The notes beneath the pieces were generated by a model, which was not told the DNA's origin, did no database searches, and saw only the letters and a program-made list of their open reading frames with translations. Positions 6,781-41,480 of a stretch of DNA of 64,000 nucleotides are shown here, one piece after another. Each line of letters opens with the position of its first letter. Positions within the stretch are counted from its first letter, which is position 1. A program made the position numbers and the translations under genes. Source of the DNA: Thermotoga petrophila RKU-1 (lineage in GTDB: Bacteria > Thermotogota > Thermotogae > Thermotogales > Thermotogaceae); assembly GCF_000016785.1 (NCBI RefSeq), contig NC_009486.1, positions 1,426,001 to 1,490,000 on the forward strand, in the 5' to 3' direction.

Positions 6781-7101
6781 ATGGGTCCTCACCAAATTGT
6801 TCCAGAGTTGAAACACAAAGAAACGGACTATAACTAGTGGAAGGAGGTGAGGTCATAATAGCCAGGGTGTATCAGAAAAGGGCAAAGCTCATATCCTGTA
6901 CTGGTGAAATATTATTTTTTTGTTGAGGCAGAAGGGAAAAGAAGCTTTTAAAGAATTCTTTGCTTTAAGGTTTGAAGTGAGAAGATTTTGCATATCAGGG
7001 GCTTTGTGATACAATACCACCAATTAAATAGTAAATGAGGTTTTCAGAAAGCCTGGAGAAATCGACAGAGTTCACTTAAATGGTGTAAGGGGGGTGTTTT
7101 T
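6781..7101. other. Gene-free stretch
   Basis: The first 120 bases resemble 4105-4211 (see that entry). A strong Shine-Dalgarno-like AAGGAGGTGAGGTC at 6840 has no ATG/GTG ORF of note behind it, only a short stop-closed frame, which suggests a gene remnant. The rest is AT-rich; the promoter of the gene at 7102 should lie in it, but I see no clear hexamers. Confidence 0.4.
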
Positions 7102-7878
7102 ATGAGCAAGATGTTTATCACTGTGTTCTTTGGTATAATGCTTGTTACTGTTTCTTTAATTTGCATAGCTGAAACTGCGCCAGAAATTATTTGGCAGAAA
7201 ATTCTTGGTGGATCCAGTGATGATTATGCTTTTTCAATTCAACAAACACCCGATGGTGGGTATATAGTGGCTGGATATACCGAGTCAAACGATGGAGATG
7301 TCAAAGGGAATCATGAAAACGGTGACTTTTGGATAGTAAAGCTTGATAAAGATGGAAACATAGAATGGCAGAAAACTCTCGGTGGATCCAATTGGGATTG
7401 GGCTTTTTCAGTTCAACAAACACCCGATGGTGGGTATATAGTAGCTGGATTTACCTGGTCTAATGATGGAGATGTTAGTGGAAATCATGGCTCGCTTGAC
7501 GCTTGGATAGTAAAGCTTGACAAAGATGGAAACATAGAATGGCAGAAAACCCTTGGCGGATCCGGAAATGACTGGGCCACTTCAGTTCAACAAACAACCG
7601 ATGGAGGTTACATAGTGGCTGGAGGAACCTATTCAACCGATGGGGTTATCCGAGGAAATCATGGATCACTCGATGCTTGGGTAGTAAAGCTTGACGGCAA
7701 TGGGAACATGCAGTGGCAAAAAGCACTGGGCGGATCTGGTTCGGATAGTGCTTGGTCAGTTCAGCAGACAACAGATGGAGGATACATAGTGGCTGGATTT
7801 ACCAAATCAAACGATGGAGATGTGACTGGAAATCATGGAAGCGCTGATTTTTGGGTTGTGAAGCTTGGTTGGCAGTGA
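7102..7878 (+). CDS. Secreted tandem-repeat (beta-propeller-like) protein
   Basis: 258 residues with a signal peptide (MSKMFITVFFGIMLVTVSLI then CIAETA) followed by four near-identical repeats of about 51 residues. Each reads roughly WQKTLGGS--D-A-SVQQT-DGGYIVAG-T-SNDGDV-GNHGS-D-WIVKLD. The DGGYIVAG core is typical of a repeat class found in long surface or secreted proteins of bacteria and archaea. With only four blades this is short for a closed propeller, so it may be a truncated relative. Strong ribosome site GGGGGGTG. Function unknown. Confidence 0.75.
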   Translation: MSKMFITVFFGIMLVTVSLICIAETAPEIIWQKILGGSSDDYAFSIQQTPDGGYIVAGYTESNDGDVKGNHENGDFWIVKLDKDGNIEWQKTLGGSNWDWAFSVQQTPDGGYIVAGFTWSNDGDVSGNHGSLDAWIVKLDKDGNIEWQKTLGGSGNDWATSVQQTTDGGYIVAGGTYSTDGVIRGNHGSLDAWVVKLDGNGNMQWQKALGGSGSDSAWSVQQTTDGGYIVAGFTKSNDGDVTGNHGSADFWVVKLGWQ

Positions 7879-13303: not shown

Positions 13304-13412
13304 AAAGAAAATTCTTCAATGATTTGAAAAGAACTTACAGGGCTGTTTTTTAGATCGCAAAATTTCTGTGAACTTAAATAAAAATGATTTTTTACGTACA
13401 GCAGAACAAGGG

Positions 13413-13610
13413 TTAAAAACTCTGATTTCCAGCAGTTGAACCTTTGAAAGTAACCTCACAAGTAGCTGCACTTTTGGGTGCAACCTGAACCTGTTCCGTA
13501 ATCTCACTTTTCCAGGAATGCGTTTCGTTATCTGTCTTCACTTTGTCAGCGAAAATGATTGTAGACAGGAGAACGAGTATCAAAAAGATTATCATCAAAA
13601 CCCTTCGCAT
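13413..13610 (-). CDS. Secreted small peptide precursor A
   Basis: 65 residues. N-terminal signal-like segment (MRRVLMIIFLILVLLSTIIF, then ADKVKTDN) with a likely cleavage after FA, a polar middle with one Cys (ATCEVTFKG), and the end STAGNQSF. The ATG at 13610 lies behind AGGTGATC; a GTG at 13619 is an alternative. It is divergent from the TPR gene at 13765. Related peptides lie in the same place in modules 2, 3 and 4; two of the three complete ones share TAGNQ near the end. Inferred to be a secreted signalling pro-peptide. Confidence 0.65.
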   Translation of the reverse strand: MRRVLMIIFLILVLLSTIIFADKVKTDNETHSWKSEITEQVQVAPKSAATCEVTFKGSTAGNQSF

Positions 13611-13638
13611 TCTGATCACCTGTCATCACTTTATCAAA

Positions 13639-13660
13639 CCTTATATGGTTTTCAAGTTTT
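13639..13660. promoter_or_regulatory. Shared box between peptide A and TPR regulator 1
   Basis: Second copy of the 22-base element (core TTATATGGTTTTCAAG). On the minus strand it carries TTGAAA as a -35 for peptide A, with a weak TAAAGT 16 bases further. See the entries at 13282 and 25505. Confidence 0.6.
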
Positions 13661-13715
13661 GGCTGTTCCAAAATCCTCTTTAAAAGCACATTTTCAGCAC
13701 CAGATTTCATGGGCT

Positions 13716-13745
13716 TTGAAACAATTTGGTTTTTTGAGGTATAAC
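13716..13745 (+). promoter_or_regulatory. Promoter of TPR regulator 1
   Basis: TTGAAA at 13716-13721 and TATAAC at 13740-13745, spacing 18 bases, about 20 bases before the ATG. The same elements precede the regulator of module 2. Confidence 0.6.
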
Positions 13746-13764
13746 TATAACAGAGGGAGTAAAG

Positions 13765-15327
13765 ATGAAAAGTATAGAAGGCCTGAAAGAGACATTCAAG
13801 TACGGTGCTTTTTCTCTTCCAGCAGTGAATTACATGCTACTCGAAGAAAACCTTCCAAAAGAGTGCAGAGAGGTTCTCTGTATACTGAAACTCGCTTGGA
13901 AAGGAAACTTCAAAGAAGCGATTCAGAAAACAGATAAAATTTTGAAAAGCTGCAAATCCGAAGCAGCGAAATATTTTCTTTTGGCGAACAAACTGGCATT
14001 TTTAAAATATACAGGCAAAGTAGATATGAATCTGTACAGGTACCTGAAAAGAAACCTTCCCAAAATGTCAAAATCGATAAGAGATACTGTGATCGTTACT
14101 TTAATAAATTTTGAAGCAAGCGGAGTAAAGCCACTGCGGAAGATGAGGGTGTGGAAGAACAACTACAGAAAATCCACACTTTCTTTTTTATATCTCTCCC
14201 TGGCAAGAAGGGAAGCAGATTCTGGAAGACTCTCTGAGGCGGTACACGATTACATACAGGCCTACAGACTATCCAGGGAGGTTCCTCACCCAACCTGTAT
14301 TGTTTCCTCCCTGAACGATCTTGCATGGGATATCAGGGAAAAACATCCAAAACTTGCCCATGCTCTTTCTCAAGGAGCCGTTTTCTGGCTAGGATACTAC
14401 AGAGAGGAACCAGGAAATCTCTTTGGAGCCCTGGATACTCTGTTTGTTGTGGAAAAAGACATGGATTCACCGTCTATCCACAGCACTGCACATATCATCG
14501 TTTCGCTTCCCGTACCAGAAGATTATCTGTCTCTACTCAAAAAAGCGAAGAAATTTGTGTTGGACTACACAGGATCAACTTATCCGAACACAAGTCAGTT
14601 GAGAAGATATGTTGAAAAGGTCGCTTGGAAAGGAAAAACTCTCAGCTCCAAAGGTATCTCAGATATATTGAAAGGGAAAACAAAAATGATTCGTGCAGAT
14701 ACGATAAGAAAACTGTTGACATCTGGTGTTGATACAGGGGCACCTTTTCCTGTCTGGAACGAGTGGATAAAGATGGAGATTGAAAGAAAATACAGGGAGT
14801 CGTCAGAAAAGCTTAAAGAGCTCCCCTTTCATCAGAGACAAATCCTTTTTCTTACCACCTACATGGCTCTTCTTGATAGAGAGTTCCTTTCAAGGAAAGA
14901 AAAGCTCAAAAAGGCATATACACTCCTTGAAGATATTGAGTCGTTCGCTGATTTCATGGCAAAAGATCACCGGACCATGGAATTTGTTGTTTCAATGGTG
15001 AAGGCTCATCCTTTCGTTGAAGGAAGAAAAGAAGCAGTGAAGAGAGCCCTTGCAAGGATGAAAAGAAAGAGACTGGAAAGATTTGTTCTGAGATACATCG
15101 AGATGAAAGAGTCAGACAGAAAGCTCCTTGATAGATTTCTGAGGAACTACGGAAGGTACGATGGTGTGAGGTTTGGGATCAGATTGAAAGGTCCAGAAGC
15201 GGTGAGAGGGTTTGCGAGGAAGTACTCTCTCAAGGTTCAACCCCTGTTTGCTGCCTTCTGGTGTGAAGAGGATGGAAGAGTGAGAAGAAGACTGGAAAGA
15301 ATTTTGAAATACATGTTTCTAAATTGA
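13765..15327 (+). CDS. TPR-like regulator 1 with central HTH-like segment
   Basis: 520 residues, intact. The first 270 residues are helical pairs like tetratricopeptide repeats (for example LYLSLARREADSGRLSEAVHDYIQAY and the following AKHPKLAHALSQGA type). A short segment near 290-320 (SSKGISDILKGKTKMIRADTIRKLL) looks like an XRE-type helix-turn-helix. The last 160 residues are a basic helical domain nearly identical to those in the other modules. RRNPP regulators (Rgg, PlcR, Rap) combine TPRs with an HTH and bind secreted peptides; here the HTH is central, not N-terminal, so the likeness is architectural only. ATG behind GGGAGTAAAG. Divergent from peptide A. Confidence 0.65.
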   Translation: MKSIEGLKETFKYGAFSLPAVNYMLLEENLPKECREVLCILKLAWKGNFKEAIQKTDKILKSCKSEAAKYFLLANKLAFLKYTGKVDMNLYRYLKRNLPKMSKSIRDTVIVTLINFEASGVKPLRKMRVWKNNYRKSTLSFLYLSLARREADSGRLSEAVHDYIQAYRLSREVPHPTCIVSSLNDLAWDIREKHPKLAHALSQGAVFWLGYYREEPGNLFGALDTLFVVEKDMDSPSIHSTAHIIVSLPVPEDYLSLLKKAKKFVLDYTGSTYPNTSQLRRYVEKVAWKGKTLSSKGISDILKGKTKMIRADTIRKLLTSGVDTGAPFPVWNEWIKMEIERKYRESSEKLKELPFHQRQILFLTTYMALLDREFLSRKEKLKKAYTLLEDIESFADFMAKDHRTMEFVVSMVKAHPFVEGRKEAVKRALARMKRKRLERFVLRYIEMKESDRKLLDRFLRNYGRYDGVRFGIRLKGPEAVRGFARKYSLKVQPLFAAFWCEEDGRVRRRLERILKYMFLN

Positions 15328-15436: not shown

Positions 15437-15871
15437 CTAATTTACCTCAACCTTTGTTAAGTCTATCATAGGAATGAGCACAGGATGAATCCCCATTTGA
15501 GCAGTTGTTGTGGCTACGAAAGATCGAACTATAATGAGTAGGTTCATTAAACCATTGTATTTACAAAGTTTGTCAAACAAATCTTCGCTGCTTTCTTCAA
15601 TATTGGCTTCGAATTTACCTTTTATTCTTACATACATATCGTGAACCTGTACATTTCCTTGCCTTCCTCTTATGTAAACACCTAAAACGATGCTCCTAGA
15701 AAAATAATCTTTTTGATGAACTATTTTTCCAAATTCTGGCTCGAGTTCGAGTTGGTAATCAATAAAATTGCCTTTTACTTCTTTTAACTGAAATTTTGCT
15801 TCTTCAATGAAGTAACCCAGCATTCTGAAAAAACTCCTTGAAGGGATAATACTATTTTTTTGCTTCATCAT
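15437..15871 (-). CDS. SecB-like chaperone of a toxin-antitoxin-chaperone set
   Basis: 144 residues. The C-terminal half (IKGKFEANIEES..., then CKYNGLMNLLIIVRSFV, then MGIHPVLIPMIDL) follows the pattern of SecB and SecB-like proteins, where an antiparallel sheet is followed by a long helix and a Pro-containing end. It overlaps the HTH antitoxin gene at an ATGA junction. In known TAC systems such a chaperone protects the HigA-type antitoxin; the order toxin-antitoxin-chaperone is the same here. Assignment is by pattern, not by a search. Confidence 0.6.
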   Translation of the reverse strand: MMKQKNSIIPSRSFFRMLGYFIEEAKFQLKEVKGNFIDYQLELEPEFGKIVHQKDYFSRSIVLGVYIRGRQGNVQVHDMYVRIKGKFEANIEESSEDLFDKLCKYNGLMNLLIIVRSFVATTTAQMGIHPVLIPMIDLTKVEVN

Positions 15872-16260
15872 GCAGCGACACTCCTTTGAGCTTCAAAAGA
15901 TGTGATTATTTCTTCAGACACTCCAAAGCCATATCTTGGTGATTTGTTTTCTTCTTCCGGCAGTAACCCAAGAGATATTTTGATTTTACCACCAAGTGCA
16001 GCGACTATCTTTGCCAGCACCCTAATAGATATGTTTTTCTCTCCTGTTTCAATTTTTGAAACCATAGACTGGGATACTCCAAGCTTTTTGGCCAGATCTT
16101 TCTGGGTCAGGTTGTGCATCTTCCTATAGGCTAGCAGCTGACCTCCTATCTGAGACATCACTTCGATAAAAACTTTTTCCTCTTCAGAATGATGAAATCC
16201 CATTTCTTCGAACAATTCAAAAACATCGGAATACTTTTTGAATTCCTTCACCTCCGTCAC
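15868..16260 (-). CDS. HigA-like antitoxin (XRE family)
   Basis: 130 residues with a clear Cro/C1 helix-turn-helix near 45-95 (LTQKDLAKKLGVSQSMVSKIETGEKNISI). The C-terminal tail beyond the HTH (KSPRYGFGVSEEIITSFEAQ) is the place where TAC antitoxins carry the chaperone-addiction segment. It lies between a frameshifted HigB-like toxin and a SecB-like gene, so it probably binds the toxin and autoregulates the operon. Confidence 0.75.
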   Translation of the reverse strand: MTEVKEFKKYSDVFELFEEMGFHHSEEEKVFIEVMSQIGGQLLAYRKMHNLTQKDLAKKLGVSQSMVSKIETGEKNISIRVLAKIVAALGGKIKISLGLLPEEENKSPRYGFGVSEEIITSFEAQRSVAA

Positions 16261-16728: not shown

Positions 16729-18444
16729 TCATCTCATCAGCTGGCTCTTCACAATTTCTCTGTAGAGAGGAGATTTCTTCATGAGTTCTTCGTGGGTCCC
16801 TTCAGCTTCCACCCTTCCATCGTTCAGTACAATGATTCTGCTGGCCTTTTTTATGGTAGAAAGTCTATGAGAGACGATGATCACCGTCTCGATCTCATTC
16901 AGAATTTTTTCAAGGATCTTTTCCTCTGTTTCGCTGTCAACACCAGATGTAACCTCGTCCAGAATCAGAACCTGCGGCTTTCTTATCAGGGCCCTTGCAA
17001 GGACGATTCTCTGTCTCTGACCATCTGAGAGTCTTGTCCCTCTTTCTCCAACAACCGTGTCTATTCCGTTTTCCAGTTCCTTAACAAAGTCACACTCACA
17101 CATTTTGAGAACATTTTCGATCTCATCTTCTGGGAAGTCTTCAAAAAGGGTGATATTGTTTTTGATAGTGGTGTCGAACAAAATATCGTTCGATCGAACA
17201 AGAACGATGTTTCTTCTGAGTGATTGAAGAGAGTACTGTTCGATGGGAACACCGTTTATGAGAATTTCACCCTCTGTGGGAGACAGTAGCCTGTTGAAAA
17301 GAGAAACGAGCGTGCTCTTTCCTGCACCAGATCTTGCCACAATTGCGATCTTATCCCCGGAGTTTATCTCGAAATTCAAACCAGTGAGAACAGGTGTTTC
17401 ATCGTATTTAAAATGCACGTTTTTCAACTGCAGTTTTTCGAACCTTTCAAGATCTATTCCGCTTGCTCTTTCAAAGGGCAGGGAAAACACTCTTGTAAAA
17501 TTTTCCCAGTTTGGAACTGTAGAGAAAAACGTCGTCAGACCTGTGAGTGCCATTCTGACGATGTCGTATATCCAGTTCATATAGGATTCAAAAGCCAGAA
17601 GCGTTCCAACACTTATCTCACCCTTCCAGAGAAGGTAAACACCGAAGGCAAGGACAATGGTACTCCCGACCCATCTGTTCATCTCGATGTTCCTGTTCGA
17701 AAGTTCGTTTACCGTGCTGTGGATGATGCTTGCCCTGCTCCACTCTCTGGCACTTGAATCGAGGAAATCTCTGAGAAACAAAAGGCCAGAAAACTGTTTG
17801 AGAACCGGTGTTCCTTCCACCACTTCTCTGGATCTTTTCAAAAATCTCTGGTAGGCTTCCTGATCTCTCTGAGATGTCCTGATGACCATCTTTTTCAGGA
17901 TTGAAGTCGATACAAAAAACAGAACGATGCTCGCCAGAACCACAAGGGCAAGTTTCACATTCAGAATGAACAGAAGCGAAAGAACAACAAGAAAAAATCC
18001 CAGATTGAAGAAAAACTGAAGCCTCGCAAGATAAACCCCCGAGGCCACCTTCGGAATATCCCTCATGAAGATCGAAAGATAATCACCGGTGTTCCTCGAG
18101 TTCAGAAAAGATAGTGGAAGTGTCAGGATTTTCGCATAGGCACCCTTTGATTCCTTAGCCCGTGATGCGTTCAGCAGGTGTTTCGCAACTGAGAAGTTCA
18201 GTCTGTACATGATGAAGGACTGAGACACAAGAACGACAAAATAAAGTATGGAAAACAGAGCGACTTCTTCTACAGAACCCCTGTAGAACGCACTGTCGAT
18301 GGTCTTTTTTATGAGAAGTGGAGTGAGAACGTTGGTGGTTAAAAACAGGCTCTCCAGTAACAAGAAGATCGGATAGTACCTTTTGTATTTCCTCTCGAAT
18401 TTTTTGATATCGTCTCTGACGTTACTTGCTGAGAAAAATTTCAT
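16729..18444 (-). CDS. ABC exporter (fused membrane and ATPase domains), module 2
   Basis: 571 residues. N-terminal six-helix exporter domain (about 20-300), then an ATPase domain with Walker A (ARSGAGKST), Q-loop, signature LSDGQRQRIVLARAL and Walker B LILDEVTSGVD. There is no C39 peptidase domain at the N-terminus, so leader cleavage must be done elsewhere. Large parts are nearly identical at base level to the exporter at 29444. It ends the module 2 minus-strand operon, 6 bases after an ABC ATPase gene. Probable export of a modified peptide. Confidence 0.85.
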   Translation of the reverse strand: MKFFSASNVRDDIKKFERKYKRYYPIFLLLESLFLTTNVLTPLLIKKTIDSAFYRGSVEEVALFSILYFVVLVSQSFIMYRLNFSVAKHLLNASRAKESKGAYAKILTLPLSFLNSRNTGDYLSIFMRDIPKVASGVYLARLQFFFNLGFFLVVLSLLFILNVKLALVVLASIVLFFVSTSILKKMVIRTSQRDQEAYQRFLKRSREVVEGTPVLKQFSGLLFLRDFLDSSAREWSRASIIHSTVNELSNRNIEMNRWVGSTIVLAFGVYLLWKGEISVGTLLAFESYMNWIYDIVRMALTGLTTFFSTVPNWENFTRVFSLPFERASGIDLERFEKLQLKNVHFKYDETPVLTGLNFEINSGDKIAIVARSGAGKSTLVSLFNRLLSPTEGEILINGVPIEQYSLQSLRRNIVLVRSNDILFDTTIKNNITLFEDFPEDEIENVLKMCECDFVKELENGIDTVVGERGTRLSDGQRQRIVLARALIRKPQVLILDEVTSGVDSETEEKILEKILNEIETVIIVSHRLSTIKKASRIIVLNDGRVEAEGTHEELMKKSPLYREIVKSQLMR

Positions 18445-18450
18445 AGCCTC

Positions 18451-19167
18451 TCAATCCCCCGGAAATGCCTGTATCTCTAAAATACCTCTCAACACTGCCG
18501 CCAAATCTTCCTTTTTTGGAGAAAATTCGAGAACTTTTTCGCCCTTTTTCAAAACGATCACCCTGTCTGCGATCTTTAGATCCTCCAGGTCATGACTTGC
18601 AAAGATGACGATTCTACCACTCTCTTTGAGTCTTTTCATGATCTCGTGTATCTTCAATCTCGTTCTGAGATCAACTCCACTGCACGGCTCATCGAAGATG
18701 TATATGCTCGCCTTTTTCATCAGGGCTCTTGCCACATCAACTCTTTTTTTGTACCCGGTGGAAAGTTCCATGTACCTCTTTTTCCTGCACTCCAGAAGAC
18801 CCAGTTCCTTCATCACTCTTTCTGTTTCTCTCTTCAGCGTTTTTCCAAGAAGGTCGTTCAACATACCAAAAAACTTCAGATTCTCTTCCACACTCAACCT
18901 GTAGTAGAAGCTCCTCTCATACCCGGTTGATATGCTGACCTTTTCTACTGCAAAGGAAGGCTTTTCCACGATGTTCACACTGTCTATGAGAACCTTCCCT
19001 CTGTCAGGAATGAGAAAGGAGGCTATAACCTTCAAAAGTGTCGTCTTTCCAGAACCGTTCTCGCCGAAGACCGCCGTGATACTTCCTTCTTCCGCCTCAA
19101 AACTCACTCCCCTTAAAGCCTGTGTTTTCGGAGGGTATTTCTTCCAGACATCGATCACCTCTAGCAC
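18451..19167 (-). CDS. ABC transporter ATPase, module 2
   Basis: 238 residues with Walker A GENGSGKTT, signature LSTGYKKRVDVARAL and Walker B IFDEPCSGVD. It resembles ATPases that partner with ABC-2 type permeases (antibiotic or bacteriocin export and immunity). The GTG start at 19167 lies behind GAGGTGAAAAC. The partner permease gene is 9 bases upstream, and the fused exporter gene follows. Confidence 0.88.
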   Translation of the reverse strand: MLEVIDVWKKYPPKTQALRGVSFEAEEGSITAVFGENGSGKTTLLKVIASFLIPDRGKVLIDSVNIVEKPSFAVEKVSISTGYERSFYYRLSVEENLKFFGMLNDLLGKTLKRETERVMKELGLLECRKKRYMELSTGYKKRVDVARALMKKASIYIFDEPCSGVDLRTRLKIHEIMKRLKESGRIVIFASHDLEDLKIADRVIVLKKGEKVLEFSPKKEDLAAVLRGILEIQAFPGD

Positions 19168-19176
19168 GTTTTCACC

Positions 19177-19989
19177 TCAGTACCAGCTCAGACTTCCTCT
19201 CAATCGGGCCTGATTGAAGGATCTTTTGAACGCAACGATTCCCGCTGATATCAATACTGTTCCTGTTGCTGCAAGAAGAACCAGTCCTTCCGACACACTG
19301 GAAAGGTGTTCGCCTCTCATGAGGACTCTTCGCAAAAGGTCTATGCCATAAGTGCTGGGAATGAGGTACGAAACAGGTCTTATCCAGTCTGGAAGAATTT
19401 CCACGGGAAAGTAGATACCAGAAAACAAGCCACTGAGTGTGGTGTAAAGCCACCCCACAGGATCTCCTCTTTTTGTGACGAGAACGATGGACGCAGAGAG
19501 AAGGCCAATACCCATGAGAGGAAGCATTACAGTGAAAAGAACAACCAGGGCTTCAAGAAAGTTCGGTGTGATATGAACCGAGAAGAGATAGACCAGTCCC
19601 AGAAAAATCAGTGTGATGTTCAGCGTGGTGAAAAAGAAGGAAGACACGAAACTGAAGAGAAAAAGCTGCCAGAGAGGTGTCTTTGAAAGAAGGATGTACT
19701 CGAGAGTTCCCATGCTCTGTTCTCTCTGTATGACACCTTTGAAGGTCATGAGGGCAAGATTCGTGTAAGACATGAAAACAGAACCAGTGATGAAGTACGC
19801 CAGGATGTCACCACCGTATCGCTCTATCAGGGGAAAGTAGTTCCCCTGTGCGATGAATTTTCCAATGAAACCGAACTGGACAATTCCCACAAAACCGGAT
19901 AAGAGCCCGAGAACAAGCTGTGTTCTGTAAGAAAGCCAGATGAGGATATCTTTTCTAATGAAGTACAACGTTTTGATCAGAAGTTTCAA
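19177..19989 (-). CDS. ABC-2 type permease, module 2
   Basis: About 270 residues with six hydrophobic segments and the ABC-2 signature region (SGLFSGIYFPVEILPDWIRPVSYLIP) near the C-terminus. I chose the TTG at 19989, which starts LKLLIKTLYFIRKD behind GGTGGTGAAGGT and follows directly after the Cys-rich peptide gene; an ATG at 20040 would overlap that gene. Partner of the ATPase downstream. Confidence 0.8.
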   Translation of the reverse strand: MKLLIKTLYFIRKDILIWLSYRTQLVLGLLSGFVGIVQFGFIGKFIAQGNYFPLIERYGGDILAYFITGSVFMSYTNLALMTFKGVIQREQSMGTLEYILLSKTPLWQLFLFSFVSSFFFTTLNITLIFLGLVYLFSVHITPNFLEALVVLFTVMLPLMGIGLLSASIVLVTKRGDPVGWLYTTLSGLFSGIYFPVEILPDWIRPVSYLIPSTYGIDLLRRVLMRGEHLSSVSEGLVLLAATGTVLISAGIVAFKRSFNQARLRGSLSWY

Positions 19990-19996: not shown

Positions 19997-20182
19997 TCAC
20001 CACCAGAGGAAAATTCGCTTCCACCATGGAACATGATCACATTCGGTGTTGCAAAGGCCTACACAGTGACTGTTCGTACATTCATCACAGTTTCCCACTC
20101 TGTCTCCACATCGGTCTTTCAGACTATCGCAGAAACTCAGATAGACCTTTTCATCCACCACTGGATCGTTGAGAAATTCCAT
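19997..20182 (-). CDS. 61-residue seven-Cys peptide, candidate RiPP precursor
   Basis: ATG at 20182 behind AAAGGAGGAG with 8 bases of spacing. The N-terminal third (MEFLNDPVVDEKVYLSF) looks like a leader; the rest has seven Cys (18, 25, 32, 35, 40, 44, 48) in CGDRVGNCDECTNSHC and VGLCNTECDH, and ends in PWWKRIFLWW. It lies directly after two tandem radical SAM/SPASM genes, overlapping the second by 32 bases, and before an ABC permease. Context and composition fit a thioether-type (sactipeptide or ranthipeptide) precursor; the crosslinks cannot be deduced. Confidence 0.7.
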   Translation of the reverse strand: MEFLNDPVVDEKVYLSFCDSLKDRCGDRVGNCDECTNSHCVGLCNTECDHVPWWKRIFLWW

Positions 20183-21515
20183 GAACGGCACTCCTCCTTT
20201 TGTAATCTGCAACTATCTTTATAAACTCATTTAAATTGTACCTCAACGGGATGCATGTGTGAGGCTTTTTTACCTTTGAGGATTTCAGGGTTCTATAAAC
20301 CACCCTGTTGAAAGCACATCCACCCATACAGAAAGGAAGCACAAGGCATCTTCTGCATTCTTCGTCTTCAAGTGGGTCATACGTCAACCACTTCAAATAC
20401 GATCCAGTGAATTCGACTCCGGTTTCTTTCAAAAAACCTGAACAGTTCTCCATACCAAGTTCTCCCCAACATTTGTACACTCTTCCATCCACATCGACCA
20501 CGAAACTGTTCTTACACATGGCATCACATCTTGCAAAACGTGGTTTTTTGAAATATTCAAAAGGATACTCAGGAATTTTCTCCCTGATGTACCACCACAG
20601 CTTCGTTTCTATCTCCGCAAACTCTTCTGTGTTCAGTGCTGTGTCCTGAAAGCCTGTGGGATTTCCCTCAACGATCTCTATGGGCTGGAAATTGAACTCC
20701 ACTCTCAACTTTTTCTCTGCTATCCTATCGATGAGTTTCTTCACATCTTCAATGTTCTCTCTAGACACGTTCACTCTGATCTGAACGAATAAGCCTTTGT
20801 TGACAGCACGAAAGATATTTTCGAAAATGGTGCTGAAAGTTGGAGCACCGTTTCTGGCTTTCCTGTACCGATCGTGGTACACCTCTGTACCGTCCAGTGT
20901 TATGTCCAGTGCCTTTATTCCTGCTTTCTGAAGATCATCTACCATCTTCTCCGTCAGAAGGTAGCCATTTGTCACGATGAAGGAATCGTACTTCACACCA
21001 TATTTTTCGCAGAGTCTTTTCAGTTTGCTGCTCAGATTCACCACTGTTTCTTCCAGAAGCAAAGGTTCTCCCCCGTAGAAAGTAACGCTCAGCAGGTTTG
21101 GTTTTTGGTATTCTAATTTTCTTTCCACATCCAGGAGGAAGTTGCTTTGCACTTTTTCAGAAATGTAGGATCCTGAGGAAATATGAATTACCTTCTGATA
21201 ACAGTAAACGCAATCGAAGTTGCAGGAGTGGGTTAAAACAATTGTGTATCTCAAAAATCTATCACTGTAGCGATACGTGTTGAAGCGAAATTTCAGAAAC
21301 TCCAGTTCATCGAAGTTGTCATCAAGCAAAAACATTCCCCGTTTCAACTTTTCAACTTCCGCTTTCGAAAGTTCTGCCGAGGAAGGATCTTCCAGGGTCT
21401 TCAGTACCTTGTTGGTGTTTTTCCTATCTATCCACAGAAGGGCTTGAGAAAGCGTGTTGAACAAAAGTGTGCCATCGCTTTCATTTATTACCAAATTAAA
21501 TCTCGAAGGCTTCAT
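20151..21515 (-). CDS. Radical SAM/SPASM peptide maturase 2, module 2
   Basis: About 454 residues. N-terminal region like a peptide-recognition domain (MKPSRFNLVI), radical SAM core with CNFDCVYC (Cys 98, 102, 105) and FYGGEPLL, and a C-terminal SPASM domain with CEKYG-distant Cys residues: CDAMCKNSFVVD, then CRRCLVLPFCMGGC. It shares the MKPSRFN start and overall design with its neighbour at 21496 and overlaps it by 20 bases, so the two probably act together. In known families such enzymes install thioether or carbon-carbon bonds in precursor peptides. Confidence 0.85.
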   Translation of the reverse strand: MKPSRFNLVINESDGTLLFNTLSQALLWIDRKNTNKVLKTLEDPSSAELSKAEVEKLKRGMFLLDDNFDELEFLKFRFNTYRYSDRFLRYTIVLTHSCNFDCVYCYQKVIHISSGSYISEKVQSNFLLDVERKLEYQKPNLLSVTFYGGEPLLLEETVVNLSSKLKRLCEKYGVKYDSFIVTNGYLLTEKMVDDLQKAGIKALDITLDGTEVYHDRYRKARNGAPTFSTIFENIFRAVNKGLFVQIRVNVSRENIEDVKKLIDRIAEKKLRVEFNFQPIEIVEGNPTGFQDTALNTEEFAEIETKLWWYIREKIPEYPFEYFKKPRFARCDAMCKNSFVVDVDGRVYKCWGELGMENCSGFLKETGVEFTGSYLKWLTYDPLEDEECRRCLVLPFCMGGCAFNRVVYRTLKSSKVKKPHTCIPLRYNLNEFIKIVADYKRRSAVHGISQRSSGG

Positions 21516-22824
21516 GTCTTTCGACCTGCCTTTCAAGGAGTTTTATCCTGTACCATTCCCTTGCGAATTTCTCCGGATCCTTTTTCTCTTCAGGGCATCC
21601 CGTTTTGCCATCGAACCTGGCACTTCTACATCCTCCCATGCACACAGGAAGGAGTTTGCACCTCATGCATTCTTCGCTTTCGAAAGCATCGAAAGAATGC
21701 CATCTGAGATATTTTTTCCTGTCGTATTCCAGTCCTCGGTTGGTCAATCTTCCTATCTCCATGCCTTTTCCCACTCTCACTGTGCATGGATACAACTCTC
21801 CCTGTGGACCTATCACAACAGAAGACACACAGTCGTACTCACAGTATCTGTTTTGCACAAGAACGGGAAGAAACACATTGAAGCCTCTTTTCGCAGCACT
21901 TTCGTAGAAATTGAGAATGTTCAGAGACTCCCGATCTCTGATCTCATAGACCTTCCTGAAAAAGAATTCCCTGCTGTTCGATCCAAAAATCCACCTGAAA
22001 TATACCCTCGTTCTGTCTTTCGGAAATCGCTCCAGAACGTTCAGAAACTCTTCTACACGATGGAAGTTGTCAGGTCCCACATTCATTCTGAACGTGACCT
22101 GAAGTTTCTCCGTGACCCTGAAGAGATTCTCCAGATTTTCCACAATGGTGTCGAAAGTTCCCTTGCCACCTTTCAAAGGCCTGTATTTATTGTGAACATC
22201 TTCTGGGCCATCGATCGTTATTTGAACGTTTCTTATTTCGAGCCTGTCAAACCATTCCGCTTTTTCTTTGTCGAGAAGGTATCCATTCGTTGACATGGAG
22301 GAGTGAAAATCCACATTGTTTTCTCTGCATGCTTCTATCAGCGATGAGTTTACGAACTTCACCACGTCAAAACACAGGAGGGGTTCCCCGCCGAACCAGC
22401 CTACACTTATAGATCTTCTGGTTCGAATCAGCCTTTTCAGATATTCTACGATCCTTTCTGCCGTTTTCGCTGTCATCGAAGGTCCTGTTTTCGATTCATA
22501 GCAGTAGATACAATCAAAATTGCATGCCAGGGTGGGTATGATCGTGACCATAACCGAGGAAGAATCATAGCGGGTCATTCTGTTCATAAGTTTCAGATGC
22601 TCTATTTCGTCGAAGTCCTCATCAACGATATACCCACCGTAGATCAAATCTTTCTTTATGGAAAGCCATTCTTCAGGGATCTCTTCGTCTGGATCTTTGA
22701 GAATCTTCTCTGCAATTTCTGCTTTGCTTTTTTCCAGACGAGCGATCGCTCTGGTTAGAAAGTTCACAAACACAACGTAGTCGCCATCTCTGAAAATCAC
22801 ATTGTATCTTGAAGGTTTGAACAC
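21496..22824 (-). CDS. Radical SAM/SPASM peptide maturase 1, module 2
   Basis: About 442 residues with CNFDCIYC (Cys 101, 105, 108), a WFGGEPLL glycine-rich motif and a SPASM end with CMRCKLLPVCMGGC. The start is a GTG at 22824 (VFKPSRYNVIF) behind AAGGGGGGATC; a longer frame to 22899 reads into transposon-like sequence. It is a paralogue of the next gene. The upstream sequence carries a TnpB remnant, so the original promoter or a preceding gene may have been lost. Confidence 0.83.
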   Translation of the reverse strand: MFKPSRYNVIFRDGDYVVFVNFLTRAIARLEKSKAEIAEKILKDPDEEIPEEWLSIKKDLIYGGYIVDEDFDEIEHLKLMNRMTRYDSSSVMVTIIPTLACNFDCIYCYESKTGPSMTAKTAERIVEYLKRLIRTRRSISVGWFGGEPLLCFDVVKFVNSSLIEACRENNVDFHSSMSTNGYLLDKEKAEWFDRLEIRNVQITIDGPEDVHNKYRPLKGGKGTFDTIVENLENLFRVTEKLQVTFRMNVGPDNFHRVEEFLNVLERFPKDRTRVYFRWIFGSNSREFFFRKVYEIRDRESLNILNFYESAAKRGFNVFLPVLVQNRYCEYDCVSSVVIGPQGELYPCTVRVGKGMEIGRLTNRGLEYDRKKYLRWHSFDAFESEECMRCKLLPVCMGGCRSARFDGKTGCPEEKKDPEKFAREWYRIKLLERQVERHEAFEI

Positions 22825-22949
22825 GAAAGATCCCCCCTTAGTTTTTCGCCAAACAGCTGGTACAGTTCGCGTTTGGAGAACACACCAGACAACCAGCATA
22901 CCCTTATAGAAACCGTACTCTCAGCAATTGACATCCTCAGTCTGGTCCC

Positions 22950-23090
22950 ATGAAGTTCCTCGTCGAAGTCTTGTGTCTTTTACCGCAGACAGGACACGTC
23001 TGTGAGGTGTAGGACTCGTCCAGCAAGTTTTGATAGTTCTTTGCTTAAGTTCATCATAATTCCTGAAAGGAATGTGCTTTATGGCTTGTT
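22950..23090 (-). pseudogene. Remnant of an IS200/IS605-type TnpB
   Basis: On the minus strand one frame reads [13 protein letters not shown] and, after a deletion or frame change, another reads [17 protein letters not shown] followed by KTSTRNF. This is the C-terminal zinc-ribbon signature of TnpB/OrfB proteins; the second CxxC is damaged. No complete element, TnpA or ends are visible. Confidence 0.65.
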
Positions 23091-23119: not shown

Positions 23120-23844
23120 TTACTCTGGAATCGTGAGAACAACTGTTTCCTCATCCACACCTTTTCCAAAAAACATACCCAGTGCGAAGAATACTCCACC
23201 CATGATAAGCGAGAAAGTTAGCAAAAGAGAAAAGATATCACCTTGAAAGTTTTTCACCGTAGAGTTTATCAGAACGTTTCCACCATATCCCAGAGCGAAT
23301 ACGCTCGCTATCGTTACGAATCTCATGAGAGCGGCCCTTCTGATTTTCATCACCACGCTGCTTATGAAAGTCGACACGCCTGTGTTCACTATGGTTCCAT
23401 ATATGAAAATCTTGGTCACATCTGTCGGAAACGCTTTGATGTTGAAAGTCCTTGCAAGAAACACAAAAACTATGAAAAAGATCGCAAGATAAATCTCACC
23501 TGAAAGCCACATGGACAGGATAGCACTTTTCAGATAGCTTTTTATCCTAAAGCCGTTTGAAAGCAGAAATTCGATCCTTCCACTCTCTTTCTCCGGGATT
23601 ATAACCTGCTGAAGAATTGTGAAGATTCCCATCATGATCATGCTGAGGGACATCACATAACATAGAGCATTTCAGCGATATAAATTCTCGCGATACTCTC
23701 GTTTGCAAGGATCTGCTTGGTTGTTTCGTCTGCGAAAAGCTGCGCAAGAGTGAAGGAAAAAAGCGCCATTATGAAGATCATCACAAAGTAAAAGGGAGGC
23801 TTTTTAAAGTTCATTTCAAAGAAATATCCAAATTCCCTCTTCAT
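23120..23844 (-). pseudogene. ABC-2 type permease split by a -1 frame change
   Basis: A first frame (23844 to 23653; MKREFGYFFEMNFKK...ESIARIYIAEMLYVM) stops at TGA; a second frame that starts in GTGATG at the overlap continues as MSLSMIMMGIFTILQQVIIPEKESGRIEF with four more hydrophobic segments. Joined by a -1 shift at ATGTGATG they give about 240 residues, the usual length of an ABC-2 permease. So this is either a pseudogene or two translationally coupled halves. The first start lies behind AAAGGAGGGAAGG and overlaps the ATPase gene upstream. Confidence 0.6.
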
Positions 23845-24557
23845 GACCTTCCCTCCTTTACGAAATCGAGAAAGAGTTTTTCCAGAGATTGATACTTTGA
23901 AAGAGCATCCCATACCAAGTTGTCCGCCAGTATCTTGCCGTCCTTTATCAGGACGAATCTGTCAGCGAGTTTCTCTACTTCAGCAAGGTCATGCGAAGTT
24001 ATGAGGACACCCTTTCCCGCTCTTTTGAGCTCTTTTATCGTTTCCCTCATGTTTATCCTCGATATTGGGTCAAGTCCGCTCATCGGTTCGTCAAGTATCA
24101 GAAGATCGGGATCTGGAAGTAGAGAGAGCAGGAAAGAAAGCTTTCTTCTCGTACCCTTCGAATATGTGTGAACCTTTTTGCTTAGAAACTCTTTCAAGCC
24201 GAGTTTTTCCGAGTAATAATCGATCATGTCTTTGCTGAGTTTTCCTTCAAAGTATTTGTAAAATCTCTCTACATTCTTTTGCCCGGTGTCTCCTTCCCAG
24301 AAAAAGTCCTTCTCGCTCACTACAGAAACCCTTAAGTTTGGATTTTTTATAATAGTGCCAGAATCAACCTTGAAGATCCCAGAAATGCACCTTATGGTAG
24401 TCGTCTTCCCCGCACCGTTGGGACCTATCAATGCAAGAATCTCATTCATGAAAATGTCAAAGGAAACATCTTTCAAGATGTGTTTTTCACCTATCTTTTT
24501 ATTAATTTTTCTAAGAGTAATGGCTTTGGTTCTAAAATCTCTTTTCTCCATAGGCAT
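23841..24557 (-). CDS. ABC transporter ATPase, decayed part of module 2
   Basis: About 238 residues with Walker A GPNGAGKTT, signature YSKGTRRKLSFLLSL and Walker B LLILDEPMSGLD, typical of ATPases with ABC-2 permeases. The ATG at 24557 lies behind AAGGGGGAAAG; another in-frame ATG is two codons on. The start lies inside the end of the broken radical SAM gene, in another frame. Its partner permease is split, so the transporter may be inactive. Confidence 0.83.
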   Translation of the reverse strand: MPMEKRDFRTKAITLRKINKKIGEKHILKDVSFDIFMNEILALIGPNGAGKTTTIRCISGIFKVDSGTIIKNPNLRVSVVSEKDFFWEGDTGQKNVERFYKYFEGKLSKDMIDYYSEKLGLKEFLSKKVHTYSKGTRRKLSFLLSLLPDPDLLILDEPMSGLDPISRINMRETIKELKRAGKGVLITSHDLAEVEKLADRFVLIKDGKILADNLVWDALSKYQSLEKLFLDFVKEGRS

Positions 24558-25384
24558 CTTTCCCCCTTCTCTGATGCTTTTTGCATGCCCCTTGTTATAC
24601 ATCCGTGACAAAACCATAAATCGTTGCAATTTTTGCATATTTTATCGTTGGGAGCAGGAGTTTCTGATATTGTCTACAAAAGATCTGAATTTTCAATTAG
24701 AAAATTTCTGTACGAGTATCCATATCTTCTAAGATTTTCAATATATACACTTGCCATTTGACAAATTTTCACATCAAAGTTTGGAGAAATCGTCAAGCTG
24801 TTCCAGCCTGCTCCGCAGTTAATAGCATTTGGCCTTGATTCAAGAGTGGTTATGAAATCTTTTCCATATACGTTGATAAGCTTATTCATATTGGAAACGA
24901 ATTTTTTAAAAGAATCCATACTCAGAATCAAGTTCTTATTGACTTTTGCTCTTCCCAATGGAGCAATCGGTCCGAATGCAATTGATGTAGCTCCAAGCTT
25001 ATGGGCAGTTTCTGCTATTTCGAACATATGATCCACATTTTTTGGAGTCACATTGCAAGCAATTCTGACAGGTACACCGGTATCTGTTACTTTTGAGATA
25101 GTGTCCACGGCTTTCTCATAAGCATATCTATTACCTGTGAACCATTCATAATATTCTGGATAAATACTATGTAGATCGATTTGAAAAGCCACTCTTTCTT
25201 TATTCTCCTCAATCAATTTCAAAACTTCAGCACTGAATCCTGAACCATTCGATAAAATGCCAACCAATTCAAGATTATGTTTAAATATCTCCTCTAACAC
25301 TGTTTTGAAGTCCAGAAATATGGTTGGTTCTCCACCAGTTAATTCTATGACTTTTACACCTAAATCTTCAAATTTTCTGAGAAT
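24491..25384 (-). pseudogene. Radical SAM/SPASM maturase, 5'-truncated with in-frame stop
   Basis: The frame begins at the junction near 25384 inside the motif region (GVKVIELTGGEPTIFLDF), so the N-terminus with the CxxxCxxC cluster is missing. The body (25300 to 24674) is intact, then a single TAG interrupts before a perfect SPASM end (KICKNCNDLWFCHGC), and the same frame runs on to 24491. Beyond 25384 the sequence is that of peptide precursor B, so a duplicated block was joined into this gene. The gene is AT-rich. Confidence 0.75.
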
Positions 25385-25475
25385 GTGTTTCGTTATCTGT
25401 CTTCACTTTGTCAGCGAAAATGGTTGTGGACAAGAGGACAAATATCAAAAAGATAATCATCAGAACCTTTCGCAT
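25368..25475 (-). pseudogene. Secreted peptide precursor B, 3'-truncated
   Basis: ATG at 25475. The first 32 residues are nearly those of precursor A (MRKVLMIIFLIFVLLSTTIF, then ADKVKTDNETHS), after which the frame runs three codons into the broken radical SAM gene and stops. The presumed active C-terminal part is therefore missing. It is divergent from TPR regulator 2. Confidence 0.7.
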
Positions 25476-25504
25476 TTCTGATCACCTGTCATCACCTTAT
25501 CAAA

Positions 25505-25526
25505 CCTTATATGGTTTTCAAGTTTT
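25505..25526. promoter_or_regulatory. Shared box between peptide B and TPR regulator 2
   Basis: Third copy of the 22-base element, identical to that at 13639-13660 (core TTATATGGTTTTCAAG). Confidence 0.6.
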
Positions 25527-25630
25527 GGCTGTTCCAAAATCCTCTCTAGAAGCACATTTTCAGCACCAAATTTTGTCGAGTTCGAAACAATTTGATTTTT
25601 TGGGGTATAACTATAAAGAGGTGATTGAAA

Positions 25631-27236
25631 ATGAAAGGTATTGAGAGTCTCAAAGAAATCTTCAAGTATGGTGCATTTTCTCTCCCGGTCGCCAATTATC
25701 TTCTCTGTGAGGGAAACATTCCAGGAGATTGTAAGGGAATTCTCGATGTTTTAAAACTCGCGTGGAAAGGGAACTTCAAAGAAGCGATTCGGAGAGCAGA
25801 CAAAGCTGTGGAGAACAGCAGGTCTGAAACTGCGAAGTACTTCCTTTTAGCGAACAAACTGGCATTTTTAAAATATACAGGTAAAACGGATGTGAACTTA
25901 TACAGATACCTGAAAAGAAACCTTCCCAAAATGTCAAAATCGATAAGAGATACTGTGATCGTTACTTTAATAAATTTTGAAGCAAGCGGAGTAAAGCCAC
26001 TACGGAAGGTGAGGGTGTGGAAAAACGATTACAGAAAATCCACACTTTCCTTTTTATATCTCTCCCTGGCAAGAAGGGAAGCAGATTCTGGAGACCTCTC
26101 TGAAGCGGTGCACGGTTACATACAGGCTTACAAACTGTCCAGAGAAATTCCCCATCCAACCTGTATGGTTTCCTCTTTGAACGATCTGGCATGGGACATT
26201 AAGGAAAAACACCCAAAACTCGCCTACGATCTTTCTAAAGGAGCTGTTTTCTGGCTTGGATACTACAAGGAAGCACCGGGGAACCTCTTTGGAACACTGG
26301 ATACCCTGTTTGTTTTGGAAAAAAGCATAGGATCACCTTTCATTCACAGTACTGCACATATCATCGTTTCGATTTCTGTGCCAAAGAATTATTTGCCTCT
26401 ACTCAAAGAAGCAAAGAAATTTGTGCTGGACCATACGCGATCGACTTATCCGAACACAAGTGAGGTGAGAGAGTACATTAAAAATGTCATTCAGAAAAGA
26501 AGACCTCTCAGTTCCAAAGGTATCTCAGATATATTGAAGGGAAAAACAAGAACGATTCGTGCAGATACGATAAGAAGACTGTTGACATTCAGTGTCGATC
26601 CAAGTGCGCCTTTTCCCATTTGGAACGAGTGGATAAAAATGGAGATTGAAAGAAAATACAAGGAATCATCAGAAAAAAATAAAAGGATTCTCCCTCCATC
26701 AGAGACAAATCCTTTTTCTTTCCACCTACACGGCTCTTCTTGATAGAAAATTCCTTTCAAGGAAAGAAAGACTCAAAAAGGTATACACACTCCTTGAAGA
26801 TATTGAGTTGTTCGCTGACTTCATGGCAAAAGATCACCGGACCATGGAATTTGTTGTTTCAATGGTGAAGGCTCATCCTTTCATTGAAGGAAGAAAAGAA
26901 GCGGTGAAGAAGGCCCTTGGAAAGATGAAAAGAAAGAGACTGGAAAGATTCACTTTGAAATACATCGAGATGAAAGAATCTGACAGAAAGCTTCTTGACA
27001 GATTTCTGAGGAACTACGGAAGGTACGATGGAGTGAGGTTTGGGATCAGATTGAAAGGTCCAGAAGCGGTGAGAGGGTTTGCGAGGAAGTACTCTCTCAA
27101 GGTTCAGCCCCTGTTTGCTGCCTTCTGGTGTGAAGAGGATGGAAGAGTGAGAAGGAGACTGGAAAGAATCTTGAGGCATATGGTCCTGTATAATTTAATC
27201 GAAATTGCCATATCATTTGTCATGGTGGAAAAATGA
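25631..27236 (+). pseudogene. TPR-like regulator 2, frameshifted
   Basis: Close paralogue of regulator 1 in its first 340 residues (for example NLPKMSKSIRDTVIVTLINF is shared). The frame breaks at a run of seven A near 26675-26685; the C-terminal 160 residues continue in another frame (LHQRQILFLSTYTALLDRKF) and are nearly identical to those of regulators 1 and 3. The normal stop is also lost: compared with regulator 3, a short deletion joins GTCCTG to the TATAATTTAATC promoter of hicBA, so the frame runs on to 27236. Start ATG behind AGAGGTGATTG. Slippage at the A run could still make some full protein. Confidence 0.7.
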
Positions 27237-31167: not shown

Positions 31168-32559
31168 TCATCCTCCGTTAAAATTATCCATTAAAGGTAA
31201 TAATGTCCATGGATCAAATTCCAAAATTGTTTCTATTATTTTCTTTTCAACATCACATGCTTTGAACATATCTTTTTGGTAATCACGCTTAAAAATGCAT
31301 CTACTGCAGTAAAACAAGAAATAGCAATCCTTGCACTTGCTGTATCTAGCTTTGGTAAATAATCTCAAAGCTTTATACCTCCAGTCTTTCAAATTCTTTA
31401 GTATTTTTTCTTCATTATCTTTTACAACATTCGATATTCTGTATTTTAAATTTCCTACAACCAGCTGGCATGGGTATATGTTTCCAAAAATATCTACAAT
31501 AAATGAATTCGACCCAGCAGGGCAAAATGTACTAACAATTATCTTGCCAGAAGAGTCACTAGGGTTGAGATAATTCATCAGTAATTTACACAGCAGGGCA
31601 CGATCAAAGTCATTTAAATCTCCTCTGCGACTTTTTTCTAACAGAGAAGCTATTATTTCATAATATTCTTGAGCAATGGAAATATCGATTCGTAAATTTT
31701 TGTCTAAAGAACCATTCCAGTCGTACACCGGAGAGATAATCACATTTGCAGCATTGAATTCGGTATAGAAATATTTGTATATTTTCAAAATATTCCAACC
31801 GAGTTGCTTGTGTAACTTGGTGTAGGTAACTTCAAATGATATAGAAAAACCTTTCTGTTTAAGCAAATTTATGTTATTCTTTATCCGATCAAAACTGCTA
31901 GACTTGCTATCAAGACTAGGTCTTGTATTATCTTGTATTTCTTTCGGCCCATCTAGACTAACAACCATATAGATTTGGAATTTATCCTTATAGGACTCGT
32001 AAATTTTAATAAAGCGATTGATAGTTTCCTCTGAAACAAATAAACTTGTAGCTACGGTTATTCGCAGATTATTGAATTTTTTAGCATACTTTGATGTCAA
32101 TATTCTGAACATTTCTTCTATCATTTCAATATTTAGGAGAGGTTCTCCACCAAAAATATGTATATTGTGCACATTATAATTCGAAAGAAAGAAATCAAGG
32201 GTCCGTACTAATACATTTCTCTTCATAAAGCCAGGATTACCATATGTTCCAGCGTTAGCATAACAGTATCTGCATTTTAATCTACAAACCTGAGATACAT
32301 TTAGCGCTAAACGCAAAATATCATTATCTTTAACCAACTTTCTTTTCAGAGAAATTAAAGTATTTTTCTTTAACTTTTCGAGCTCTTCTATGACATTTTT
32401 GGCTTTAGTGCGAACTAGGTAAGAAGAAGCCTTTCTTGTTATTTGTATACTATCATCTAATTTGTAGAAATCAAAATTAACCTTGTCTAGAAGATACCTA
32501 TTATTGCGAGGAGCTTCAATCAATGAGAAAAAGACCTTGGGTAGATTAATGGTTATCAT
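31168..32559 (-). CDS. Radical SAM/SPASM peptide maturase, module 3
   Basis: 463 residues. Radical SAM cluster CRLKCRYCY (Cys 92, 96, 99), glycine motif IFGGEPLLN, and a C-terminal SPASM region with CPAGSNSFIVDIFGNIYPC and CKDCYFLFYCSRC. The ATG at 32559 follows AAGGAGGTTTT. The gene is strikingly AT-rich. It lies directly after the gene for a Cys/Gly-rich 31-aa peptide and before two exporters, so the peptide is its likely substrate. The type of bond made is unknown. Confidence 0.87.
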   Translation of the reverse strand: MITINLPKVFFSLIEAPRNNRYLLDKVNFDFYKLDDSIQITRKASSYLVRTKAKNVIEELEKLKKNTLISLKRKLVKDNDILRLALNVSQVCRLKCRYCYANAGTYGNPGFMKRNVLVRTLDFFLSNYNVHNIHIFGGEPLLNIEMIEEMFRILTSKYAKKFNNLRITVATSLFVSEETINRFIKIYESYKDKFQIYMVVSLDGPKEIQDNTRPSLDSKSSSFDRIKNNINLLKQKGFSISFEVTYTKLHKQLGWNILKIYKYFYTEFNAANVIISPVYDWNGSLDKNLRIDISIAQEYYEIIASLLEKSRRGDLNDFDRALLCKLLMNYLNPSDSSGKIIVSTFCPAGSNSFIVDIFGNIYPCQLVVGNLKYRISNVVKDNEEKILKNLKDWRYKALRLFTKARYSKCKDCYFLFYCSRCIFKRDYQKDMFKACDVEKKIIETILEFDPWTLLPLMDNFNGG

Positions 32560-32660: not shown

Positions 32661-32756
32661 TTAACCACACCAACCACAGACGAGACCAGCTCCTCCACAT
32701 CCTTTTCCTGGGTTCAAATAATCATTAGGAACAACTGGTTTTGGCATCTTCTGCAT
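32661..32756 (-). CDS. 31-residue Cys/Gly-rich peptide, RiPP precursor candidate
   Basis: ATG at 32756 behind AAAGGAGGGG. The peptide begins MQKMPKPVVPNDYLNPG and ends GKGCGGAGLVCGWCG: three Cys in the last 12 residues. Proline- and charge-bearing leader, small-residue core. It stands directly before a radical SAM/SPASM gene and two exporters, with hairpins on both sides. I believe it corresponds to the peptide called TM1316 in T. maritima, reported to be induced in stationary phase; that identity is from memory. Confidence 0.8.
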   Translation of the reverse strand: MQKMPKPVVPNDYLNPGKGCGGAGLVCGWCG

Positions 32757-34800: not shown

Positions 34801-34896
34801 ACCCGGAGTTCCAGCCTTAGAATCTCTTTCTCCTGCTATAATTTAATCGAAATTGCCATATCATTTGTCATGATGGAAAAATGAGGGGTGAAAAAC

Positions 34897-35115
34897 GTGC
34901 GCAAAATTTTCACAGCTATCATTGAATACGATCCTGAAACAAAGCAATATGTTGGAATGGTTCCGGACGTTCCGGGTGTGCATACTGTAGGTAGTTCCTT
35001 AGAAGAAGTGAGAAGGAATTTAAAAGAGGTGCTTGAACTCGTATTGGAGGAAGCAGGAGATGAAATAAATCACCAGGAATTCGTGGCTCTTGAGATGATA
35101 GAGGTGGAAACTTGA
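34897..35115 (+). CDS. hicB: HicB-family antitoxin, copy 2
   Basis: 72 residues, almost identical to the protein at 27249, but with a GTG start behind GAGGGGTGAAAAAC. A TATAATTTAATC upstream (about 34838) is a likely -10. Overlaps hicA by 4 bases. Confidence 0.8.
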
Positions 35116-35342
35116 GTTATCTTCCAATAGTTGATCCAAAAACTATGGAAAAGGTTTTACTGAAACTTGGATTTCAACGTGTTCGCCAAAAAGGAAGTCA
35201 TGTGTTCTACAGGCACAGCAATGGCAGATATACGACCATCCCATTTCATGCAAGAGCCTTGCCCAAATCACTTATAAGAAAAATCATCCGTGAAGCGGGT
35301 ATATCAGTGGAGGAATTCAAGAAAGTACTTGAGAATCTGTGA
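35112..35342 (+). CDS. hicA: HicA-family toxin, copy 2
   Basis: 76 residues with the catalytic region [26 protein letters not shown] and the complete helical end ([15 protein letters not shown]). Family members cleave mRNA; the His in GSHV is the expected catalytic residue. TTG start, coupled to hicB. This is the intact version of the frameshifted copy at 27464. Confidence 0.82.
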
Positions 35343-41390: not shown

Positions 41391-41480
41391 CTAAGGAGTT
41401 ACTACTGCACATCTTTGACTTCTGTTAGTGCATCCACCTAAAGGAATAGAATGGTTCGCGATTCGCTTAAGTACATTCAT
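41391..41480 (-). CDS. 29-residue two-Cys peptide, RiPP precursor candidate
   Basis: ATG at 41480 behind AAAGGGGGGACAAAGG. The peptide starts MNVLKRIANHSIPLGG and goes on CTNRSQRCAVVTP, with Cys at 17 and 24. Its start overlaps the end of precursor D (ATGA), so the two are translationally coupled. It precedes a radical SAM/SPASM gene and an ABC export set. Too short for routine annotation. Confidence 0.65.
   Translation of the reverse strand: MNVLKRIANHSIPLGGCTNRSQRCAVVTP

Follow-up and report, generated by a model that had tools for sequence, protein, structure and literature searches.

A 61-residue cysteine-rich peptide encoded beside two radical SAM enzymes in Thermotoga petrophila, probably the surviving precursor of a multi-precursor RiPP system

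The locus described here lies in a 64-kb stretch of the Thermotoga petrophila RKU-1 genome, hereafter the window, and its features are collected in Table 1. Two radical SAM (rSAM) genes, rSAM1 and rSAM2, stand in tandem directly upstream of an open reading frame that encodes the 61-residue peptide MEFLNDPVVDEKVYLSFCDSLKDRCGDRVGNCDECTNSHCVGLCNTECDHVPWWKRIFLWW followed by a stop. An earlier note on this DNA gave the coordinates and length of the peptide correctly, as well as its seven Cys within 31 residues, but left out the strand. The gene is encoded on the minus strand, read from 20182 to 19997, and the plus-strand reading of the same interval, which is an unrelated open frame, was dismissed as lying on the wrong strand. 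The Cys residues occupy positions 18, 25, 32, 35, 40, 44, and 48, a conserved NCxxCxNxxC motif spans residues 31 to 40, and the C-terminus reads PWWKRIFLWW, as the note had recorded. The ribosome-binding site it had proposed is present at 20200 to 20191, and a GGAGG is found 10 nt 5' of the ATG. The gene is tightly packed among its neighbors, with 32 nt overlapping the 3' end of rSAM2 and a stop codon 7 nt ahead of the inferred TTG start of an ABC-2 permease. That permease with its ATPase and a fused ABC exporter, directly downstream of the precursor, account for the two ABC systems that the note had placed in the operon.

Table 1. Features in and around the precursor locus (window coordinates)
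Feature	Position	Strand	Remarks
Fused ABC exporter (membrane + ATPase)	16729..18444	minus	
ABC transporter ATPase	18451..19167	minus	partner of the ABC-2 type permease
ABC-2 type permease	19177..19989	minus	TTG start at 19989 inferred
Cys-rich peptide, 61 aa, almost certainly a RiPP precursor	19997..20182	minus	leader ~1-17 (MEFLNDPVVDEKVYLSF), core ~18-61; boundary inferred
Ribosome-binding site of the precursor	20191..20200	minus	AAAGGAGGAG
rSAM2, radical SAM/SPASM maturase	20151..21515	minus	predicted RRE-like N-terminal domain
rSAM1, radical SAM/SPASM maturase	21496..22824	minus	GTG start, VFKPSRYN...
Stump of lost upstream precursor	22838..22901	minus	tail AGCLVCSPNANCTSCLAKN then stop, identical to the end of L017 7262-7429
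TnpB (IS200/IS605) C-terminal fragment	22928..23023	minus	PF07282, 24.7 bits, E 4.8e-5, below family cut-off
ABC ATPase beside AlbA-like fragment	23841-24638		broken permease pieces also there
AlbA-like radical SAM fragment, 208 aa	24674-25300	minus	covers only AlbA 185-358 of 442, no CX3CX2C
31-aa peptide	32661-32756	minus	MQKMPKPVVPNDYLNPGKGCGGAGLVCGWCG; followed by rSAM3 (31168-32559) and two ABC exporters
29-aa ORF	41391-41480	minus	MNVLKRIANHSIPLGGCTNRSQRCAVVTP; upstream of another rSAM (39963-41291)

The coding status of the gene was examined from several sides. It is the sole ATG-initiated frame of 40 to 80 residues in the window with seven Cys in 31 residues, and none of 60 dinucleotide shuffles produced a comparable one. 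Against the 87% identical homologue of the genome G096, the region outside the rSAM2 overlap gave a dN of 0.088 and a dS of 0.953; eight amino acid changes separate the two peptides, none of them in residues 1 to 18, and the gene is, by this comparison, under purifying selection. Based on its conservation in Thermotogota, this selection, the good ribosome site, and the shuffled controls, the minus-strand frame is a real, selected protein-coding gene.

Homologues of the peptide were found in 13 of 103 Thermotogota genomes by one search and in 19 of the 103, one of them doubtful, by an alignment-based search, and they extend to several further families of the phylum. An alignment of 17 precursors revealed that M1, E2, F3, N5, P7, C18, N31, C32, C35, C40, and C44 are invariant and N37 nearly so; when more divergent precursors were added, the strict core was reduced to E2, P7, C32, C35, and C40. 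Across 17 to 20 diverse precursors the leader MEF(L/I/V)NxP and the core motif are conserved and the C-terminal part, including the Trp tail, varies, which gives the family a conserved leader, a variable core, and a genetically encoded precursor, as is characteristic of RiPPs. All strong matches adjoin an rSAM1-rSAM2 pair, with pair and precursor split over two contigs in G096, and three genomes of the same genus (G093-G095) lack precursor and pair alike. The order rSAM1-rSAM2-precursor-ABC is retained in families f1, f3, and f10, where the transporter near the precursor is again an ABC-2 permease/ATPase pair. A weak match in G087 (E 0.004 to 0.01) was left uncounted, as it has an internal stop, comes from a fragmentary genome, and is the sole exception to the pairing. 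A Mesorhizobium match (L002, 29% over residues 19-61, with an E-value relative to the candidates only) was taken as a chance Cys-rich sequence. No NCBIfam family covers the window peptide, and a plasmid search with the precursor gave no match. Since leader and core recur beside the same pair of enzymes, the window gene is almost certainly a RiPP precursor, and both the leader-like start and the precursor reading of the earlier note are supported.

The two maturases, which the note had called paralogous, are 30% identical to each other, and the CX3CX2C motif and all SPASM cysteines are intact in both. A longer rSAM1 frame, starting from 22899, extends into the precursor stump discussed below. 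In a maximum-likelihood tree, all rSAM1 sequences fall in one clade and all rSAM2 sequences in another (each 100/100; families f1, f3, f4, f8, and f10), although the relation between the clades and their relation to Clo7bot lack resolution and the long branches call for caution. As read from this tree, rSAM1 and rSAM2 are two ancient, always-paired clades and not a recent duplicate. The predicted structure of rSAM2 (pLDDT 82.6, pTM 0.85) begins with three strands followed by two helices (bbb-aa), and we consider this N-terminal domain RRE-like, as judged by the order of secondary structure elements. The closest PDB fold to the rSAM2 model is CteB (5wgg/5why; E 4.3e-16 and 16% identity for 5wgg), and CteB is also the top PDB sequence match for each of the two enzymes. 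The precursor thus adjoins intact rSAM/SPASM maturases, of which rSAM2 has a leader-recognition domain predicted from secondary-structure order.

Relatives of this locus carry more precursors than the window does. In G091 (locus L017), three extra precursors lie directly upstream of rSAM1 (6934-7098, 7120-7233, and 7262-7429 of that locus), each with a purine-rich stretch resembling a ribosome site, and G096 carries the same three. The upstream and downstream peptides of G091 differ; in G078 and G086, the downstream precursor has a near copy upstream of the pair. G001 has about five precursors upstream, and G014 has two downstream. Collinearity between the window and L017 breaks off at 22901 and resumes at 25373, the interval being filled by other DNA. 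At the first of these junctions the window keeps the exact tail of the third upstream precursor of L017, which a TnpB fragment adjoins, and across this stretch the window and G092 remain collinear. The kept tail and the collinearity of G092 indicate that the upstream array has been lost in the window's lineage, and the loss probably involved an IS200/IS605 element. The 61-residue peptide is the only intact precursor left for this rSAM pair in the window. The earlier note had remarked that the precursor stands downstream of its enzymes, unlike in two modules that it numbered 3 and 4; this holds for the window but does not describe the native design, because relatives hold precursors on both sides and the window order came about through loss of the upstream ones.

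The DNA that replaces the array also contains a decayed subtilosin-like module, made up of the AlbA-like fragment, the ABC ATPase, and the broken permease pieces of Table 1. Three repeated blocks (13408-15308, 25373-27174, and 33193-35342) flank the RiPP modules but lie on the other, plus strand; each encodes a TPR-like protein, and in the last two the TPR-like gene is followed by small ORFs resembling HicB/HicA. Recombination between these blocks may shuffle the island. We take the surroundings to correspond to the TM1316 island of T. maritima, the TM1316 locus reportedly having been treated by Frock et al. in AEM in 2013. The length of TM1316, 31 residues, fits the 31-aa peptide beside rSAM3, which is probably its counterpart. 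The 61-residue precursor is not TM1316, which belongs to a separate module with one rSAM enzyme and a different peptide. The 29-aa ORF is possibly the precursor of a further module.

To place the system among known ones, we compared it with four. Clo7bot, with TIGR04333 peptides and a TIGR04334 maturase, is a system of Clostridia. It resembles the Thermotogota loci in that an rSAM/SPASM enzyme and ABC transporters accompany an array of several small Cys-rich precursors, as on the Paraclostridium bifermentans plasmid NZ_CP079738.1, where seven annotated Clo7bot peptides starting MKFI(K/R)(K/Q)P precede an annotated ctpM. Leaders of the form MxFxxxP and arrays of several precursors both occur in the Thermotogota family. 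The Clo7bot N-terminus MKFIKKP aligns position by position with MEFLNxP, but an hhalign comparison of the two leaders covered 10 columns with a probability of 5% and an E-value, for this single comparison, of 0.0075, so that the match is suggestive and statistically weak. TIGR04334 (maturase CtpM) is the best curated family for rSAM1 and rSAM2, which match it over nearly the whole length of the model. However, Clo7bot has one maturase and the window family two. The window enzymes score 248.3 and 248.1 bits against a TIGR04334 cut-off of 600, which was exceeded in none of the 103 genomes; TIGR04333 and other precursor models did not match the window peptide, and among 17 relatives TIGR04333 gave a single, non-significant match (E 0.37). 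Because enzymes and peptide both fall outside the Clo7bot models, the window system is regarded as one that would work like Clo7bot without being a member. Four loci of family f10 (L029-L031 and L034) hold single-rSAM, Clo7bot-like arrays of 2 to 6 Cys-rich peptides with MxWIE or MEWIMKP leaders, and these look intermediate.

The SCIFF/thermocellin enzyme CteB, a ranthipeptide maturase, shares with the window enzymes a SPASM domain and an RRE-like N-terminus, but the fold match has the low identity given above, the enzymes score 59.8 and 106.3 bits against the TIGR03974 (SCIFF maturase) cut-off of 425, and the precursor, lacking an NCBIfam match, is unrelated to SCIFF. Thuricin CD, compared here by description, likewise combines two rSAM enzymes with more than one precursor that contains Cys. 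Both enzymes are needed there: TrnC and TrnD associate in a complex, and each performs poorly by itself (PMC12093266). Ruminococcin C also combines several precursors and two rSAM enzymes in one operon. There, RumC1-5 are served by RumMC1 and RumMC2, two closely similar, interchangeable enzymes that make the same bonds (PMC6779426), in contrast to the two ancient clades of the window pair; rSAM1 scores 72.9 bits with the RumMC model NF035951 against a cut-off of 720. The deep divergence between rSAM1 and rSAM2 would fit the thuricin CD precedent better than that of ruminococcin C.

Our preferred reading, to which we assign a probability of about 0.8, is that the peptide survives from a set of precursors belonging to a multi-precursor RiPP system of Thermotogota, in which rSAM1 and rSAM2 jointly make thioethers and ABC transporters export the product. 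In the pathway that we infer, rSAM1 and rSAM2 would each recognize the short leader MEFLNxP through an RRE-like domain at the N-terminus; both enzymes would be required and would probably act jointly. Radicals derived from SAM would then link thiols of the core Cys around NCxxCxNxxC to carbons of other residues, giving thioethers. The leader would be cut off by a protease encoded outside the operon, the peptide exported via the adjacent ABC-2 system, the fused ABC exporter, or both, and the product would most likely act on related cells as a bacteriocin or signal.

How the enzymes share the work can be approached from loci with few precursors. It might be that each rSAM enzyme serves its own precursors, one the upstream array and the other the downstream peptide, such that one enzyme would be dispensable for the window peptide. 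Precursors flanking the pair on both sides in relatives, the difference between the upstream and downstream peptides of G091, and the one-enzyme-per-peptide precedent of haloduracin-like lanthipeptides with two LanM (PMC12093266) are consistent with such a division. We nevertheless think it unlikely. Four f10 loci (L022-L025, each from a different genome) have a downstream precursor only, a search upstream of rSAM1 having found no additional Cys-rich MEF peptide there, and the window and G092 have lost their upstream precursors; in all of these rSAM1 is intact, as is rSAM2. Retention of both enzymes with a single precursor argues against one enzyme per precursor and for joint action, and the upstream and downstream precursors of G078 and G086, being near copies, point the same way. 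Dual-enzyme maturation is thus well supported by the genetics. The earlier note had suggested that two enzymes may install two bond types. By analogy, rSAM1 and rSAM2 jointly modifying one peptide is better precedented, and we know of no described rSAM RiPP with a two-step, two-cross-link maturation. That an obligate, diverged pair reads one MEFLNxP leader and installs two kinds of cross-link in one peptide is a speculative idea to which we give little weight.

Regarding the bonds themselves, sactipeptides carry thioethers from Cys S to an alpha-carbon and ranthipeptides from Cys S to a non-alpha carbon. The CteB-like fold predicted for rSAM2 is no more than suggestive of the ranthipeptide linkage, and the putative thioethers may be of either kind. 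With Cys-rich cores, this fold, and a conserved Asn, thioether links are our first guess. A different outcome, in which C-C or aryl cross-links form on the Trp-rich tail, or the second enzyme installs some other modification, and the Cys become disulfides or metal ligands, appears doubtful. It would suit the Trp tails of the window, G096, G078, G086, and the f10 genomes and the resemblance of the rSAM2 fold to SuiB as well, SuiB being an enzyme that makes Lys-Trp bonds. However, the upstream precursors of G091 share the Cys motif yet are tail-less, sequence and fold comparisons both point to the thioether synthase CteB as the closest structure, and the core conserves Cys and Asn rather than Trp; tail cross-links could form in the window peptide but not in these upstream peptides of G091. 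Asn is among the thioether acceptors in ruminococcin C (PMC6779426), and PapA uses Asp/Glu (PMC9413430). It is highly improbable that the peptide is instead a small metal-binding protein of zinc-ribbon or rubredoxin type to which the enzymes are unconnected. Its CxxC spacing and a sub-threshold Pfam match (E 0.048), in which the rubredoxin domain of PknG was hit, would agree with this, but such weak matches disagree between family members, Cys number and spacing vary among paralogues, and the precursors are strictly linked to rSAM pairs. A known metal-binding fold, which the earlier note had named as evidence that would count against its own reading, was not recognized, the precursor profile having no PDB match and the predicted fold not being confident (pLDDT 45.7).

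Of the later steps of the pathway, the operon gives a partial account. The fused exporter has no peptidase domain match, so leader removal would have to depend on another protease, and neither a leader protease nor an immunity gene was recognized in the operon. A promoter and terminator scan gave no excess of sites over shuffled sequence. The window copy has perhaps lost its native promoter along with its upstream neighbors, and with these gone the precursor may be poorly expressed. Judging by the neighborhood only, the peptide could plausibly serve as an antimicrobial or signal in stationary phase. A helix-turn-helix regulator (15868-16260, minus strand) lies immediately downstream of the exporter; it may control the operon or, alternatively, may pair with 15437-15871 as a toxin-antitoxin system.

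The neighborhood was already known in part through TM1316; what is new is the Thermotogota precursor family, which has neither an NCBIfam nor a Pfam model and is tied to strictly paired, diverged rSAM enzymes. With single-precursor genomes, a short, well-defined leader, and proteins that are presumably heat-stable, it offers a test bed for why RiPP systems keep two rSAM enzymes, and peptide cyclization would benefit from thioether synthases that withstand heat. The window also provides an example of a multi-precursor RiPP locus that has been pruned beside a mobile element.
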